Assembly: GCA_030680795.1 (NCBI GenBank) | Contig: JAUXUL010000048.1 | Span: 1 to 64,000, forward strand | Direction of reading: 5' to 3' | Source of the DNA: Anaerolineales bacterium | GTDB taxonomy: Bacteria > Chloroflexota > Anaerolineae > Anaerolineales > Villigracilaceae | Length of the DNA: 64,000 nucleotides | Shown here: piece after piece, positions 14,810 to 21,846 of the stretch | Numbering within the stretch: the first letter of the stretch is position 1 | Layout of the letters: each line of letters begins with the position of its first letter | Position numbers and translations under genes: made by a program | The notes under the pieces: generated by a model | What the model was told of the DNA's origin: nothing | Database searches by the model: none | The model's input: only the letters and a program-made list of their open reading frames with translations

Positions 14810-15109
14810 ATGATTGACTTGAGCTACGTCACGGGCTTTGATTGGGATGAAAATAACCGCGTGAAGAATTGGGAAAAACACCAGGTTCTAGCAGGTGAAT
14901 GTGAAGAAGTGTTTTTCAATTTACCTCTTCTGCTTGAGTCAGATCCCGATCATTCCCAAAAAGAGCCGCGATACTATGTGCTTGGTCATACAATTGCTGG
15001 CAGGCGTTTGTTTATAGCATTTACGATCCGAGAAGACAAAATTCGAGTTATTTCTGCCCGCGACATGAGTAAAAAGGAGCGCAGTATTTATGAGCAAACC
15101 AATTCCTAA
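14810..15109 (+). CDS. brnT: BrnT-family toxin (type II toxin-antitoxin), copy 1
   Basis: 99 aa with the BrnT ribonuclease pattern: FDWDENNRVKNWEKHQVLAGECEEVF, then YYVLGHTIAGRRLFIAFTIREDKIRVISARDMSKKER. This RelE-like fold cleaves RNA and arrests translation when free. It overlaps the antitoxin gene by 20 bp, toxin first, the usual BrnTA order. It sits between two long direct repeats, which suggests acquisition as a unit. Confidence 0.88.
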   Translation: MIDLSYVTGFDWDENNRVKNWEKHQVLAGECEEVFFNLPLLLESDPDHSQKEPRYYVLGHTIAGRRLFIAFTIREDKIRVISARDMSKKERSIYEQTNS

Positions 15110-15377
15110 ATTCAAAAACGAAGACGAGGAACGCGCTTTTTGGAACGAACATGATTCCTCCGAATATCTGAATTGGAAAAGCGCCGAGCGGGTTTTATTT
15201 CCAAATTTGAAACCATCCACTCGCGCAATTTCCCTGCGCTTGTCAGAATCGCTTCTGGATGCTCTGCGCCAGATGGCAAATGAGCGCGATGTGCCGTATC
15301 AGTCATTAATAAAAATTTTTTTGCAGGAACGGATTGAACGGGACCTAAAATCGCGCCAGTTATCAAACGGGGGATAA
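15090..15377 (+). CDS. brnA: BrnA/CopG-like ribbon-helix-helix antitoxin, copy 1
   Basis: 95 aa. The N-terminal half (KFKNEDEERAFWNEHDSSEYLNW) is the toxin-wrapping region of CopG-type antitoxins and the C-terminal half AISLRLSESLLDALRQMANERDVPYQSLIKIFLQERI is a ribbon-helix-helix DNA-binding domain. It should bind the palindrome at 14786-14806. Its stop is immediately followed by direct repeat copy B. Confidence 0.87.
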   Translation: MSKPIPKFKNEDEERAFWNEHDSSEYLNWKSAERVLFPNLKPSTRAISLRLSESLLDALRQMANERDVPYQSLIKIFLQERIERDLKSRQLSNGG

Positions 15378-15729: not shown

Positions 15730-16089
15730 TTGGCTACGTCGATGGAATCTGTGTTGGATTTCCTGAGGAATTTCAAGGAAATTATGACAAATGGTCAACG
15801 AGGATTGGATATTATTCCCAGAGAAGAGAATAATCAAACAATTATCGAATTGGGTCTGACAAGAAAAAATATAGAAAAAGAAATACTTGAGCTGACTGCA
15901 CAAGATTATTGTTCTGGTCCCGAGGAAGATCACACCAGACCAGGTGTGATATGGAAGTTCGGCAAGAATATTATGCAACGCGAAATTTACATTAAACTCA
16001 AAATAGCCGAAATTGGCAGCGAAAAAATTGCAAAATGTATCTCGTTTCATAAAGCAAATCATAGAATAAATTATCCGTTGAAGAACTAA
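15730..16089 (+). CDS. MqsR-like type II toxin
   Basis: 119 aa. The core LTRKNIEKEILELTAQDYCSGPEEDHTRPG-VIWKFGK-IYIKLKI matches the MqsR-related toxin family (RelE-fold, mRNA interferase), including the Asp-Tyr-x-x-Gly-Pro...D region and the strand that ends with CISFHKANH. It starts with TTG preceded by TAGGAGGT at good spacing. The antitoxin gene follows after 46 bp. The gene is visibly more AT-rich than the flanking housekeeping genes, consistent with transfer. Confidence 0.75.
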   Translation: MATSMESVLDFLRNFKEIMTNGQRGLDIIPREENNQTIIELGLTRKNIEKEILELTAQDYCSGPEEDHTRPGVIWKFGKNIMQREIYIKLKIAEIGSEKIAKCISFHKANHRINYPLKN

Positions 16090-16135
16090 TTCATAGAAAG
16101 ACTATAAAAGATTATAAAAAGAAAGAGAGTTTGCA

Positions 16136-17137
16136 ATGTTAGGCATTTGCCCAAATTGCGAGAAGGAAACTACACTGGAGTTTATTAAGCGTGATGAAAA
16201 TATCATCGTGCGTAATGAACCAATAAAAGTAAATGTTGAATTCTACAAATGTGTGGAATGTGGTGTTGAGTTTAGAGACCCTAAATCTTTAAACGACCCC
16301 TTAGCTATAGCTTATAGAGAATACCGACATGTTCATAATATGGTTCAACCTGAGCAGATAAAAGAGTTTAGGGAACAATACAATATCACTCAGCAAGAGT
16401 TGTCAAACCTTTTAGGTTGGGGAGGCGCAACTTTGAGCCGATACGAAAATGGCGCTTTGCAAGATGAAGCTCATGATACGGTTTTGCGCTTAATTCTTGA
16501 GCCGCGCAATTTCAGAGATTTGTTGGAAAATAAACCTGAGGTGGTTTCTGAGTTGAAAAGAAAAAAGATCAACGGTCTTCTAGTTGACAGCATGAAAGGT
16601 TTTGAAAAATCTTTTATGATCATGTATGAAGAATTGTTTGGTAGATATAAACCAAGTAAATATAGCGGATATAAAGAACTAGAAATTGCAAAAATATTTA
16701 ACTCGATTATTTTCTTTTGCAAAGATAGTGATGTTCCTAAAACCAAGTTAAATAAACTACTTTTTTATGCTGATTTCAAGCATTTTAAGGAATACACTGT
16801 TTCTATTACTGGGGCTCAATATGCTCATTTGCCTTTTGGTCCTGCGCCAGATCATTATCAATATTATCTTGCTGCATTGGATAATGAAGAGGAAAATATA
16901 CGGATTGAAGAGAGGGTTTTCGCTGATTATATTGGAGAGTTTTTAGTGGTAACAACTAATCCGAATTTATCGTATTTCTCGACTAGTGAATTGAAAATCT
17001 TGACTACGGTAAAGGAGTATTTTTCTAATTTTACTGCTAAGGCAATAAGCGAACTTTCTCATAGAGAAATCGGCTATCAATCAACAAAAGATGGAGACCT
17101 TATTTCTTATGAATATGCTGCAAGTTTGAATATTTGA
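16136..17137 (+). CDS. MqsA-type antitoxin with C-terminal Panacea (DUF4065/SocA-like) domain
   Basis: 333 aa in three parts. Residues 1-45 are a zinc ribbon (CPNCEKE...CVECG, as in MqsA). Residues ~75-125 are an XRE-type helix-turn-helix (FREQYNITQQELSNLLGWGGATLSRYENG). Residues ~170-330 are a Panacea/DUF4065 domain (LNKLLFYADFKHFKEYTVSITGAQYAHLPFGPAPDHY). Panacea domains are known from proteins that neutralise diverse toxins and from SocA, an adaptor of Caulobacter. The combination with the preceding toxin gene makes a toxin-antitoxin operon, here toxin first. The HTH is the likely ligand of the 32-bp palindrome. Confidence 0.85.
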   Translation: MLGICPNCEKETTLEFIKRDENIIVRNEPIKVNVEFYKCVECGVEFRDPKSLNDPLAIAYREYRHVHNMVQPEQIKEFREQYNITQQELSNLLGWGGATLSRYENGALQDEAHDTVLRLILEPRNFRDLLENKPEVVSELKRKKINGLLVDSMKGFEKSFMIMYEELFGRYKPSKYSGYKELEIAKIFNSIIFFCKDSDVPKTKLNKLLFYADFKHFKEYTVSITGAQYAHLPFGPAPDHYQYYLAALDNEEENIRIEERVFADYIGEFLVVTTNPNLSYFSTSELKILTTVKEYFSNFTAKAISELSHREIGYQSTKDGDLISYEYAASLNI

Positions 17138-18728: not shown

Positions 18729-20606
18729 TCATTCCAGCGTCACAATGTGTTGATGGATCAAGTGCGCGTAGCGGTTTTGCAAACGGATGAAATGGTTTTG
18801 GATCGCATCCGCTTCGGAGCCTTCCAGCACAAGGAACTTTCCTTTTTCGACACCGTTGCGCGCGATCTCGCGGCAGACTGCTTCAGTGATCAACTCTGCC
18901 AAGAGCACCTGACCCTGCCGGGTGGTATCGAGACGGTAGATTTCATCCAAATAAATTTTTACCGAAGGCGCGGCAGTTGCGATCACAATGCTCGAATTGA
19001 CACGGTCAAAATAAACTCGCTGACGCGGATCGGAGCGGTCATCAAAACGAATATCTGTGAACAAAGCATGGCTGCTTCTTGTTGGCGGCGCAGCCAGTGT
19101 TTCTTTTTTGGAATGCACCTGCACGATTGCCTGGGCCCTGTTCCTGCCAAGATACGCGGTCACAACCCCTTCACTGCCCACCTGCCTGCCTTCCACTTTC
19201 ACGCGCGCTTCCAAAATGGTCGCGTCCGTTTTATGCGGCTTGAGCAGCACCTGCGGAGTTAACGTAATGATTTCAGGGCTGTTGGAAATAACGGTGACCG
19301 TTGCACCCGCTCTTCCATTTTCACCTAATCCAACGCGCAAGATCAATGCGGCGGTTTGTCCTGTTTGCACATAAAGCCGTTCGGGAAAAAACCCAATCCC
19401 GGATTCTGGCAATTCAATTGCCTTATGAAAATCGCCTTCTCTTTGATCGCGGAGTTCGGTCAGTGCAATCGTATTCAACTCATGCAAGGCATGGTCTAAT
19501 TTATTACGTAACTTTTTATCCAGTTTTGTTTGCTCATCATGGAGCGAATGTTCGCGTTCCGCTTGAACGAGCGGTTCAAGTTTACTTTCCACTGCAAGTT
19601 TCAACGCCTTCGCAAATGGATGCGTCCAGTTTATGCCGTCTCGTGTTGCCGTCAAGACGGGTTCGTCGTTCTTTAACAAATCATGCAAATGGTCGCATTG
19701 GATCGAACCGTAAAAATAAGCCGCATACGGGTCACTCTCAAACTTGAGCATGGTCAGCGAAACCACGGTCGCCTTGCTGATCACCAGCAAACCGCCGTCT
19801 GCATAATCACCCTCCTCGCTTCTTGTTGATAATTGGATTCCCGACCGATAGACCTCCAGTTTGGCTGTGGCAGGATAGCCCTCAATTTTGATCCTCTCGC
19901 TCAGGACTTTTTCGCCTCGCGGTGACTTGTAGCTGAGTAGGTGTTCCTGACGAATATTCCCGTCTGACGCAATATCCCGCAAAATGATCTTGCGCCTCGG
20001 GTTGCTCATAATCGGACGGAGTTCAAAATGCCTCTGCAGATAATTCCTGAAATTATCGAACTGCGGCACTTTTACATCACCGCGCGAAATATTGATCTCA
20101 AGGACCGTTCCATTCCCTTCAAAGACCCCATACTTCTCGCGCAGAGGGACAGTGGCTCTGATTGGCTCATCGAGGTCAAAGGTTGGGACACCTTTCTTGA
20201 TCAGCAGGGAGCATGAATAAAAATTGCCGCCTTTGAACGACGAGACATAGCCATGTCCCAGCCCAAAAATGGAATCTTTCAGACCGCGCCCCCACAAGCC
20301 GCGCACATGTTTATCTTCCTTCAATCCGCTGGTCGCTTCGCCATACGTGCCGACCACCTTGTCCATGCGCAGGTCGGTCATTCCCTCGGCATGGTCGCGC
20401 ACGCGGATGATGGAATTTTTATGTTTCCTCTTCACGTCAATGACGATCTCACCGTCCACTGCCCAGCCTGCATGTTCGAGGCGTGAATAACTGTCATTGC
20501 AATTGGTAATCACCTCCACCAGCGCGCGCAAGACATCTTTTCTGATCGCCTGGTCTGCTTGTTGCAGTGCCACCCGGTCTGCGTATTGTAATTTTCTACT
20601 GCTCAC
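18729..20606 (-). CDS. GHKL (MORC/Hsp90-like) ATPase, 625 aa
   Basis: The N-terminal GHKL ATP-binding module is clear: N-box RALVEVITNCNDSYSR (~27-42), G1 box IIRVRDHAEGMT (~65-76), and G2 box GLWGRGLKDSIFGLGHG (~103-119). A second-domain transducer-like segment follows (YRSGIQLSTRSEEGDYADGG), then a helical region and a C-terminal beta-rich part. This resembles the bacterial MORC-like ATPases described next to restriction-modification genes. The starting codon is GTG. It lies 70 bp after a histone-H1-like gene on the same strand, with a strong hairpin between them. A nucleic-acid or defence role is inference. No methylase or nuclease is adjacent. Confidence 0.8.
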   Translation of the reverse strand: MSSRKLQYADRVALQQADQAIRKDVLRALVEVITNCNDSYSRLEHAGWAVDGEIVIDVKRKHKNSIIRVRDHAEGMTDLRMDKVVGTYGEATSGLKEDKHVRGLWGRGLKDSIFGLGHGYVSSFKGGNFYSCSLLIKKGVPTFDLDEPIRATVPLREKYGVFEGNGTVLEINISRGDVKVPQFDNFRNYLQRHFELRPIMSNPRRKIILRDIASDGNIRQEHLLSYKSPRGEKVLSERIKIEGYPATAKLEVYRSGIQLSTRSEEGDYADGGLLVISKATVVSLTMLKFESDPYAAYFYGSIQCDHLHDLLKNDEPVLTATRDGINWTHPFAKALKLAVESKLEPLVQAEREHSLHDEQTKLDKKLRNKLDHALHELNTIALTELRDQREGDFHKAIELPESGIGFFPERLYVQTGQTAALILRVGLGENGRAGATVTVISNSPEIITLTPQVLLKPHKTDATILEARVKVEGRQVGSEGVVTAYLGRNRAQAIVQVHSKKETLAAPPTRSSHALFTDIRFDDRSDPRQRVYFDRVNSSIVIATAAPSVKIYLDEIYRLDTTRQGQVLLAELITEAVCREIARNGVEKGKFLVLEGSEADAIQNHFIRLQNRYAHLIHQHIVTLE

Positions 20607-20635
20607 GATAAAAATACCTTTTCATTTCACATGCC

Positions 20636-20673
20636 TTTGCGCCATCGCGAAATCACACTCTCGATGGCACAAA
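20636..20673 (-). promoter_or_regulatory. Intra-operon hairpin between the lysine-rich gene and the GHKL ATPase
   Basis: TTTGCGCCATCG (20636-20647) and CGATGGCACAAA (20662-20673) form a 12-bp stem with one wobble and a 14-base loop, just after the upstream gene's stop. It could attenuate or process the message. Confidence 0.5.
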
Positions 20674-20676
20674 AGA

Positions 20677-21846
20677 CTACCTCTTCTTATTTATTTTCTT
20701 TCGAGTCGGTCTCAACAAGGCAGAAAAACTTTCCTCGCAAAAATTCAGGAAAGTCGTCAGGTCTCTTCTGTTGTGGATATTGACATAGCCTCTGAACAGG
20801 TTCACATTCCGTGCCAGCGTTTCTGGTGGCGACTCCATTGTGCATAGCAGCAGGCTTCTAAAGTCAAATTCACTGATTCTTGATTTACTGCCATTCTTTT
20901 TATATTGGCGAAAAGCGTCTGATGATTCCATCAAACGTATGACTTTTCCTGCTTTCGCCTTCTCTTCCCTGGATACATGGCTCGCTGCAGCTGGCGCAAT
21001 GGTCTTGACCGGCTGAGGCGCAATGGCTTTTTTCCTTTGAGTTGAAGGTTGTACGGGTTTTACTTTCTTATCTTGAGGCAGCAGTGAATGCGCCATGCTC
21101 AGTTGGGCTGGCTGCGCAATTTTTCCAGCGCTTGGTTTCCGCGGTTTTTTCCTAAGGGGCGCTTTTTTAACAGAAACTGGCGCTGGCAATTTCACTAACT
21201 TTTTACCAGGTTTCTCTGCCTTCTTTTTCAAAGGAAGAGTCGCTTGTTTTACTTTAACAGGTTTTGTCTCAATCGTTGGTTTAGCAGGCTTAAAATGTTT
21301 TGGGACGATCTTCTTAACAAACCTGCTCACCTGCTTTTTAAGTGATTTCTTCTTTGCAGCCGGTGCAACGAATTTTTTCTTTTGCAGAATAACTTTTGTT
21401 TTCATTACCCGTTTTTTAATAGGTTTAACAGGAGCAGCCTTCTTTATTACTAAACCAGTCTCTTTCTTTACCTTTACAGGCACAGGCTTGACCAGCCCCA
21501 ACGCCCTGGCAATTCTTTTTGCAAGTTGTTTCCCTTTGTACTTCAGGGAAAAACCATCCGCTGCATTGCCTTTGATATTTCCTTTTTCCCTGCCAGCATT
21601 CAAACGACGGATCACCAGCGCGGAATCAGGCCAGTGTGGATAATGCTTCAGCGAGAAACTGTGTGGAAACAACCTGAAACAAACTGAAACGATTTCCTCT
21701 ACTGTGGCAGTCACTCCCTGTTCCTGCAAATAATGCACAACATAAACGATGAGTTTATTCAACGCGATCTTTGAATAAACATCCAGCTCGATTTTGGGAA
21801 GATTCTTTATTTTTATTTTTTTTGCAACGGTCGCCCTGGATGCCAT
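20677..21846 (-). CDS. Lysine-rich, histone-H1-like protein with winged-helix-like N-domain
   Basis: 389 aa from the ATG at 21846. Residues ~10-110 are a compact helical domain (LIVYVVHYLQEQGVTATVEEIV ... WPDSALVIRRLNAGREKGNI) that looks like a winged helix. Residues ~115-285 are a low-complexity linker of KKxxPxK/KPxKK repeats. The last ~90 residues are another folded domain (DFRSLLLCTMESPPETLARNVNLFRGYVNIHNRRDLTTFLNFC). The design is like nucleoid-type proteins. It precedes the GHKL ATPase in a two-gene unit, so I infer that it targets or loads that ATPase on DNA. No family name recognised. Confidence 0.65.
   Translation of the reverse strand: MASRATVAKKIKIKNLPKIELDVYSKIALNKLIVYVVHYLQEQGVTATVEEIVSVCFRLFPHSFSLKHYPHWPDSALVIRRLNAGREKGNIKGNAADGFSLKYKGKQLAKRIARALGLVKPVPVKVKKETGLVIKKAAPVKPIKKRVMKTKVILQKKKFVAPAAKKKSLKKQVSRFVKKIVPKHFKPAKPTIETKPVKVKQATLPLKKKAEKPGKKLVKLPAPVSVKKAPLRKKPRKPSAGKIAQPAQLSMAHSLLPQDKKVKPVQPSTQRKKAIAPQPVKTIAPAAASHVSREEKAKAGKVIRLMESSDAFRQYKKNGSKSRISEFDFRSLLLCTMESPPETLARNVNLFRGYVNIHNRRDLTTFLNFCEESFSALLRPTRKKINKKR

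Follow-up and report, generated by a model that had tools for sequence, protein, structure and literature searches.

What does a GHKL ATPase do in a bacterium when it is encoded beside a putative DNA-binding protein and the pair carries no nuclease? In plants and animals, MORC proteins keep transposons silent; prokaryotic members of this group have been described from gene neighborhoods. The locus that raises the question lies in a 64,000-nucleotide stretch of an Anaerolineales bacterium of the family Villigracilaceae (GenBank assembly GCA_030680795.1, 3.45 Mb in 54 contigs; contig JAUXUL010000048.1, positions 1 to 64,000; hereafter "the window"), and the closest named relatives are Chloroflexota metagenome-assembled genomes (MAGs), one of them a Candidatus Villigracilaceae isolate. 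On the minus strand between 18729 and 21846, a gene for a winged-helix protein (the partner, P0002) is followed after 70 bp by the ATPase gene (P0001). The two genes are a real, conserved unit that is unnamed in the libraries searched and represents a variant within the prokaryotic MORC/paraMORC group. The best overall explanation, to which we assign a tentative probability of about 0.42, is that they would form one machine, an adaptor-guided and ATP-gated DNA clamp acting on DNA that is probably foreign.

The pairing is real and conserved. An earlier note on this DNA, made from the sequence alone, had coupled the two genes and stated that relatives with no lysine-rich gene next to the ATPase would speak against it; the neighborhood survey that it proposed found the partner gene kept beside the ATPase. 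In a sample of the class, the ATPase is present in 8 of 249 genomes and the partner in the same 8. A partner match adjoins the ATPase match in all 28 fetched loci (the window and 27 relatives, a chosen set rather than all matches; L079, in the numbering that labels individual relatives' loci, has both genes fragmented). A scan of GTDB with the ATPase profile found 157 relatives, of which 80 were kept in a set that overlaps the 28 loci, and the partner family lies next to the ATPase, at most 424 bp away, in 62 of these 80. In 45 of the 62 the partner is upstream, overlapping or within 20 bp, judged from longest-ORF starts (ORF, open reading frame), while in L131, a MAG labeled as a Nitrososphaerota archaeon, it stands on the downstream side of the ATPase. 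The labels of the kept loci include Ignavibacteriae, Lentisphaerae, Aminicenantes, Acidobacteriota, Nitrospira-type bacteria, Nitrospinota, Bacteroidota, Cloacimonadota, KSB1 and candidate-phylum bacteria, in all more than ten phylum labels with the pair; errors of MAG binning are possible. Distances between ATPases and between partners are strongly correlated over 67 loci (Mantel r 0.906, with 0 of 2000 permutations as high; r 0.748 for pairs with an ATPase distance >0.5), as is partly expected from shared ancestry alone.

Both genes are under purifying selection. Compared with the nearest relative (L119), the ratio of nonsynonymous to synonymous substitution rates (dN/dS) is 0.13 for the ATPase and 0.25, 0.31 and 0.19 for the winged helix, linker and C-terminal domain of the partner; because these values are low and the pair is conserved elsewhere, the ORFs are not a product of chance. 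ORFs and structural models also agree with the positions, minus-strand order and domain layout that the earlier note had given. The ATPase starts with GTG, and the partner has 389 amino acids (aa) from an ATG, its longest ORF reaching 402 aa from a TTG. Promoter-like matches are not in excess (4 against a shuffle mean of 4.9). There are 8 terminator-like matches against 4.4 in shuffles (standard deviation 2.2), including one on the minus strand just past the ATPase stop; we made no use of them.

The ATPase carries the complete GHKL signature, as the earlier note had read it: an N-box at residues 28-40 (ALVEVITNCNDSY) with E31 and N35, a G1 box D71-H-A-E-G75-M and a G2 box at residues 102-110 (RGLWGRGLK). 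The catalytic roles of these motif residues come from the general GHKL literature. E31, N35, D71, G75, G103 and G108 show no variation across 48 aligned ATPase rows, and R322 in the S5-type domain, which may form a basic finger, and R530 in the C-terminal alpha/beta domain are invariant as well (the structure-linked alignments of 48 and 54 rows exclude solo ATPases, truncated copies and near-duplicates). Sequence libraries recognize little else: Pfam gives P0001 a GHKL match under the cut-off (HATPase_c_3, E 0.0031) and relatives matches above it (L030, E 1.9e-7; L066, HATPase_c, 7.2e-6), NCBIfam and PADLOC have no match for P0001 at E<=1, PHROGs has none at E<=0.01, and these four libraries provide no name for either protein beyond the GHKL domain. 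When the genome that contains the window was searched with PF13589, five other GHKL sites came up, and P0001 was not one of them at E<=0.001.

The structural model of P0001 (mean predicted local distance difference test score [pLDDT] 86.7) is built of a GHKL domain, an S5 transducer, a long helix, a beta-sandwich and a C-terminal alpha/beta part. VIA-align matched its residues 7-357 best to DNA-bound MORC2 (9cdj; Z 21.7, root-mean-square deviation [rmsd] 3.4 over 305 residues), tied or nearly so with Hsp90 (Z 21.0), SMCHD1 (6mw7; Z 20.6, rmsd 4.3 over 315) and topoisomerase VI-B (Z 20.6). Because these four are so close, the predicted fold says clamp-type GHKL protein and not specifically MORC. 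The tie with MORC2 also suits a chaperone of the Hsp90 kind with the winged-helix protein as its one client, and the profile of the ATPase family is weakly similar in sequence to N-domains of Hsp90 (E about 0.01). Hsp90, however, acts as a general chaperone, whereas the ATPase gene tracks one small DNA-binding-type partner, and no Hsp90-family Pfam match at E<=1 extends beyond the GHKL domain; we consider a dedicated chaperone very improbable.

How close is this ATPase to MORC? The label "MORC-like" in the earlier note holds for the GHKL-S5 architecture but not for MORC proper. The model alignment contains the GHKL and S5 fusion by which the MORC family is defined, a feature shared with Hsp90 and topoisomerase VI-B. 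The S5-domain motif described as uniting MORCs is GhXhhpXXRhl (PMC2292703), and residues 272-282 of P0001 read GLLVISKATVV, with T in place of R and the remaining positions fitting. None of the compared relatives' rows has R at this position, and L066, L068 and L069 have one a residue earlier. Because threonine replaces the S5 arginine, the window ATPase is, judged from sequence, paraMORC-like and not MORC proper, i.e., a GHKL-S5 protein without the MORC motif, a label based on motif and fold. Like the prokaryotic MORC and paraMORC proteins in the account of Iyer et al. 2008 (PMC2292703), the family combines a GHKL-S5 ATPase with sporadic spread and some relatives beside DNA methyltransferases. 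It differs in that P0001 lacks the MORC-specific S5 arginine, the core pair includes no helicase or nuclease, a winged-helix partner recurs, and the ATPase has an additional beta-sandwich and C-terminal domain. In some relatives with ATPases of 740-790 aa the beta-sandwich region is doubled: L066, L068 and L069 each have two matches to the stretch of the profile at about 395-500. SMCHD1 shares the fold of the ATPase module and is distinguished by an SMC hinge and great length, neither of which is seen in the window ATPase, although no test for the hinge fold was made. A GHKL ATPase also occurs in a phage-defense protein, VcSduA of the GHKL-type Shedu systems, and proteins of this layout were formerly annotated as paraMORC3 (both as reported in PMC12137116). 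In contrast to Shedu, neither P0001 nor P0002 has a DUF4263 match at E<=1, and there are two proteins here and one there.

The partner links the pair to DNA, which we regard as likely. In its AlphaFold2 model, residues about 20-117 and about 292-380 form confident domains (pLDDT about 97), and the linker between them is of low confidence. VIA-align placed the winged helix closest to AF1382 (2qvo; Z 10.8, rmsd 1.9 over 81) and next to MntR/DtxR repressors (Z about 9-10). The earlier note had called this protein histone-H1-like. Its N-terminal domain is a predicted winged helix, but the match rows shown are filled by winged helices other than that of linker histones, such as MntR, DtxR and MarR; Pfam has no family for P0002 at E<=1, linker histone included, and the L030 partner has a match under the cut-off to HVO_A0261_N (E 3.9e-5). 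What recalls H1 is the linker, with 27% lysine, 13% proline, 12% alanine and a net charge of about +45. To our knowledge, linker histones have no folded C-terminal domain. The likeness to H1 and to the bacterial H1-like proteins Hc2 and AlgP is one of composition, a basic lysine-rich tail that here adjoins a winged helix; unlike these proteins, the partner has a folded C-terminal domain and an ATPase neighbor, and most partner loci of the family lack the tail. Tandem repeats like those of Hc2 were considered for the linker, which has none; both short arrays that we found code for the partner's N-terminal part.

Partners measure 163-263 aa in 38 of the 62 loci and 280-600 aa in the other 24, and the C-terminal domain is kept in relatives without the linker. 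From these sequences, the conserved core of the partner appears to be the winged helix plus the helical domain, roughly 200-260 aa. On an 87-row tree of the ATPases (built from ORFs of at least 400 aa, so that the VapBC-associated L146 and L149, for example, are missing), the long-linker label (25 rows including the window) falls inside one Chloroflexota group of 33 rows with one change relative to the rows of other labeled groups; unlabeled short-linker rows fall within this group, so a single origin of the linker is not established in detail. In ten partners measured with rough linker boundaries, the linker varies several-fold in length at 19-28% lysine. Because it is bound to one clade and steady in lysine while its length varies, the histone-like tail looks like a local, late addition retained for its composition. 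We reject histone H1 homology as a family trait, given the single-clade linker and the absence of a linker-histone match.

Table 1. Positions of the two genes and their predicted domains in the window.
Feature	Position	Strand	Description and basis
Partner gene P0002	20677..21846	-	389 aa; winged helix, basic linker and helical domain; first gene of the unit
Partner winged-helix domain, residues about 20-117	21496..21789	-	AlphaFold2 pLDDT about 97; VIA-align
Partner Lys/Pro/Ala-rich linker, residues about 125-290	20977..21474	-	probably disordered; pLDDT about 50; composition
Partner C-terminal helical domain, residues about 292-380	20707..20973	-	pLDDT about 97, all-helical; kept in linker-less relatives
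GHKL-S5 ATPase P0001	18729..20606	-	625 aa; motifs; model mean pLDDT 86.7
GHKL (Bergerat) ATP-binding domain, residues about 7-175	20082..20588	-	approximate boundaries; invariant motif residues; model
S5-type transducer domain, residues about 176-325	19632..20081	-	VIA-align to MORC2 9cdj
Long helix of ATPase, residues about 330-385	19452..19619	-	DSSP on model
Immunoglobulin-like beta-sandwich of ATPase, residues about 404-498	19113..19397	-	DSSP; fold name from strand pattern
C-terminal alpha/beta domain of ATPase, residues about 518-621	18744..19055	-	DSSP; invariant R530

In some relatives the pair is combined with further genes, and their order (VapBC-type modules, methyltransferases) makes a defense role plausible. 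A PIN-domain gene preceded by a VapB-like ORF, which was judged to be AbrB-type by eye, lies directly upstream of the partner on the same strand in 7 of the 62 loci. PF01850 was confirmed singly in five of them (L088, L141, L091, L146, L149), and the PIN genes of L096 and L104, two loci that are near-copies of each other, are phmmer homologues. In L091 and L149 the longest ORF of the partner shares 68 and 106 bp, respectively, with the PIN gene, and later start codons exist there. When two of the PIN proteins served as phmmer queries, the 1.11 Mb of these loci yielded a single additional PIN ORF (L115), though such queries favor their own PIN subfamily and do not amount to a formal test of enrichment. 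On the ATPase tree, the PIN label (7 rows, with L194 and L195 and without L146 and L149) needs 4 changes, 2 of them forced by well-supported branches, and is more clustered than in shuffles (mean 6.7; 0 of 500 as low), partly via near-copies.

Methyltransferases are a second such companion. The earlier note had remarked on the lack of a methylase, and none is seen in or beside the window pair, but the statement does not extend to the family. Two loci beyond the 62 bear this out. L194, on a very long branch, has the order VapB-like gene, PIN gene, N6/N4 methylase, partner and ATPase, with the methyltransferase overlapping the partner gene, and an N6 methylase gene overlaps the partner gene in L197. 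Methylases also occur on the opposite strand: Pfam identifies those near L068 and L132, and only a motif marks those near L131, L089 and L119. Upstream at L066, L067 and L069 (under the cut-off) and at L200 (above it) stands a coiled-coil-type protein that matches HARE-HTH, and the upstream protein of L150 is a sequence homologue of this type, though Pfam gave no HARE-HTH match. Other upstream neighbors are ORF6N genes 87-133 bp away on the same strand (L130, L154 with a homologue of that in L130, and L196) and a DUF559 gene (L143), while a DUF2130 gene lies downstream in L196; one item at L131 is probably a spurious ORF.

In a survey of 34 diverse loci, 135 of 164 listed neighbor ORFs were scanned as sets of 70 and 65, after 29 had been removed on visual inspection (probably spurious or duplicated ORFs, or genes of ATP synthase). 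Among the matches listed, no Pfam family exceeds 3 of 70 (N6_N4_Mtase 3, PIN 3) or 3 of 65 (Fic 3), and many are housekeeping families. PADLOC matched 97 families in the first set, where 6 members hit mad2 and at most 3 hit any Type II methyltransferase model, and 67 in the second (PDC-S05 by 3, SoFic by 2); many of these models overlap, and the counts stand without a random-locus control. On the Pfam counts a conserved defense island is not established, although the PADLOC matches lean the other way.

The pairing of a GHKL gene with a winged helix-turn-helix (wHTH) gene and the VapBC-type modules upstream also suit the main rival explanation, a sensing switch. Here, the GHKL protein would read DNA damage, ends or modification and alter a winged-helix repressor so that its own operon is de-repressed or a toxin freed, as in CapK/CapS and VapK/VapS/VapC. 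The precedent keeps this rival in play: the published analogue, as reported in PMC13373217, combines a GHKL kinase, an STAS-wHTH protein and VapC, and shares with our pair a GHKL gene beside a wHTH DNA-binding gene and a VapC link in some lineages. In contrast to these systems, neither of our proteins has an STAS match at E<=1, and the ATPase, with its S5 and further C-terminal domains, has a clamp-type layout rather than that of an anti-sigma-like kinase. A VapB-like ORF moreover precedes every VapC-type gene examined (the seven loci and L194), and the window pair has no close downstream gene on its strand that would obviously be under its control, yhhN being encoded on the other strand. We regard the switch as a serious but doubtful alternative.

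Within the genus, the ATPase is present in 39 of 55 listed genomes, several of the remaining 16 being incomplete assemblies. The usual gene order is yhhN - ATPase - partner - GT516 - DMT - polX, with DMT moved in some genomes. Among 12 chosen genomes without the pair, 8 have a polX match and 7 of these were read: in L174, L175 and L176 of the same genus the yhhN or DMT gene abuts GT516 where the pair is absent, in L177 GT516 is missing as well, and in L178-L180 of other genera fewer marker genes are present. Because other genera of the family also have the pair near polX (L070, L071, L073), loss of the pair is the simpler reading of the vacant sites, and the direction of change would follow from it. 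One same-genus assembly (G713) has two copies of the pair on contigs C56 and C74 (L080, L081), each with the same marker genes, and this bin may possibly mix two strains. The broken copy in G721 (L079) was dropped as an example of decay, as the assembly is 78% complete and indel errors are as likely.

Such a conserved family locus, under purifying selection and amid housekeeping-type neighbors, would also fit a chromosome-maintenance pair that serves nucleoid compaction, topology or segregation and has no part in defense, with the lysine-rich tail as a chromatin-like feature of one family. The ATP synthase operon setting in two relatives and the absence of P0001 from the phage and plasmid records searched point the same way. 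The pair, however, was not found in 16 of 55 same-genus genomes, some of them incomplete assemblies, and it is patchy across phyla and missing from most genomes in every phylum sampled: 15 of 400 genomes of the window's phylum have the ATPase, one as a C-terminal fragment, and the phyla of three distant loci have it in 4 of 247, 3 of 247 and 3 of 198 (counting the center genome and some partial matches). Toxin and methylase genes also adjoin the pair in some relatives. We think a pure maintenance role unlikely.

The preferred explanation, the adaptor-guided clamp, can be spelled out as follows. The partner's winged helix would bind DNA and its C-terminal domain would recruit the ATPase, a GHKL-S5 dimer that, by its fold, may close on ATP like MORC, SMCHD1, Hsp90 and topoisomerase VI-B and form an ATP-gated clamp around DNA. 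Clamping would compact, silence or stall the bound DNA, the likeliest target being foreign or wrongly marked DNA. We infer complex formation, clamp action, target and defense role from these predictions and gene orders. In Villigracilaceae-like Chloroflexota, the gain of the long Lys/Pro-rich linker may have added non-specific DNA affinity and reach. Some other lineages combine the same core with an add-on such as a VapBC toxin module, a DNA methyltransferase or a HARE-HTH protein. The DNA-binding domain of Rok is a winged helix. Winged helices are described as methylation sensors and as domains of xenogeneic silencers (PMC11037411, PMC6212790), and MORC-1 of C. elegans reportedly entraps DNA and condenses it (PMC8277788), all of which fits silencing or exclusion of foreign DNA. 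In open-access PMC literature, we found no description of an ATPase and winged-helix pair of this kind.

Several observations weigh against this explanation. The structural match cannot tell MORC from Hsp90. Of the 80 GTDB loci, 18 have no partner, namely six Chloroflexota copies and twelve others, and eleven of these twelve group together on the 87-row tree as a single solo clade with a long branch, which suggests that the ATPase can occur alone; in L148, L151 and L162 the ATPase lies within 600 bp of a contig end, and an upstream partner may be cut off. In the family, the pair occupies one conserved chromosomal locus amid housekeeping-type genes, and in L085 and L086 it lies inside an ATP synthase operon, unlike a typical defense island. 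Searches with P0001 gave no match among 50,697 phage and 72,556 plasmid records, and two scans of viral contigs, at the settings used, gave 22 and 66 pattern matches, none of them a relative. Among the 62 partner loci, a conflict-type gene upstream was identified in 11 (7 VapBC, 2 ORF6N, 1 HARE-type, 1 DUF559), the remaining 51 not being systematically annotated upstream, and the unit in the window has no effector, nuclease or any such upstream gene. Finally, PADLOC-DB 2.0.0 has no match for P0001 or P0002 at E<=1, nor for 10 relatives' proteins at E<=0.01.

Regarding the solo clade (L142, L148, L151-L153, L155, L157, L159, L160, L162, L164), its ATPases have about 630-680 aa and hosts among Pseudomonadota, Actinomycetota, Bacillota and others, including Stutzerimonas stutzeri K1, with no adjoining winged-helix gene seen. 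A search for unlinked partners in 7 partnerless genomes matched in one, beside a second, separate ATPase. Genome G1440 has a second pair of the HARE-HTH type (L200), while its window-like ATPase (L112) has no adjoining partner. At L085 (147-5170) and L086 (4551-12992), on the same contigs as L030 and L031, the pair and a 113-aa gene stand within the ATP synthase operon. Neither a distant ATPase nor one from the solo clade had a match in plasmids when used as the query, and cargo of a mobile element or phage was rejected as an origin, given the lack of phage or plasmid matches for P0001 and of relatives in the viral-contig scans.

A bolder proposal would place the pair at the center of a modular immune platform as yet undescribed, in which clamp and winged-helix reader sense foreign or wrongly modified DNA and gate interchangeable outputs (a VapC RNase, a methylation check or a HARE-HTH reader), with the Chloroflexota form standing alone and immobilizing DNA itself via an evolved histone-H1-like tail. 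We offer this as speculation that may well be wrong; if true, it would be a bacterial parallel to MORC-driven chromatin silencing. Whichever explanation applies, a minimal unit of clamp-type ATPase and DNA-binding-type adaptor without a nuclease is found repeatedly in different bacterial phyla, and once in an assembly labeled archaeal, offering a tractable system for asking whether GHKL clamps alone can silence or exclude foreign DNA, and the VapBC- or methyltransferase-bearing loci make a defense or sensing role directly testable.

Elsewhere in the window, a likely toxin-antitoxin pair at 14810-15377 (+), presumably BrnT/BrnA, has a first gene matching the PDB entry "toxin" 7vd7 (E 2.7e-5), and a similar ORF pair lies at L027 3510-4062. 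At 15730-17137 (+), a 333-aa protein resembles MqsA in a zinc/HTH part (3gn5, E 5.8e-5) and seems to resemble a Panacea/DUF4065 antitoxin in its C-terminal half; the 119-aa ORF preceding it has no PDB match. GC content drops to 34% at 16000-16999, against about 42-53% around it. Among the relatives, L132 (5323-6732, minus strand; a Chisholmbacteria MAG) encodes a fusion between an N6/N4 DNA methyltransferase and a LexA-like protein that comprises a LexA DNA-binding domain and an S24 peptidase.

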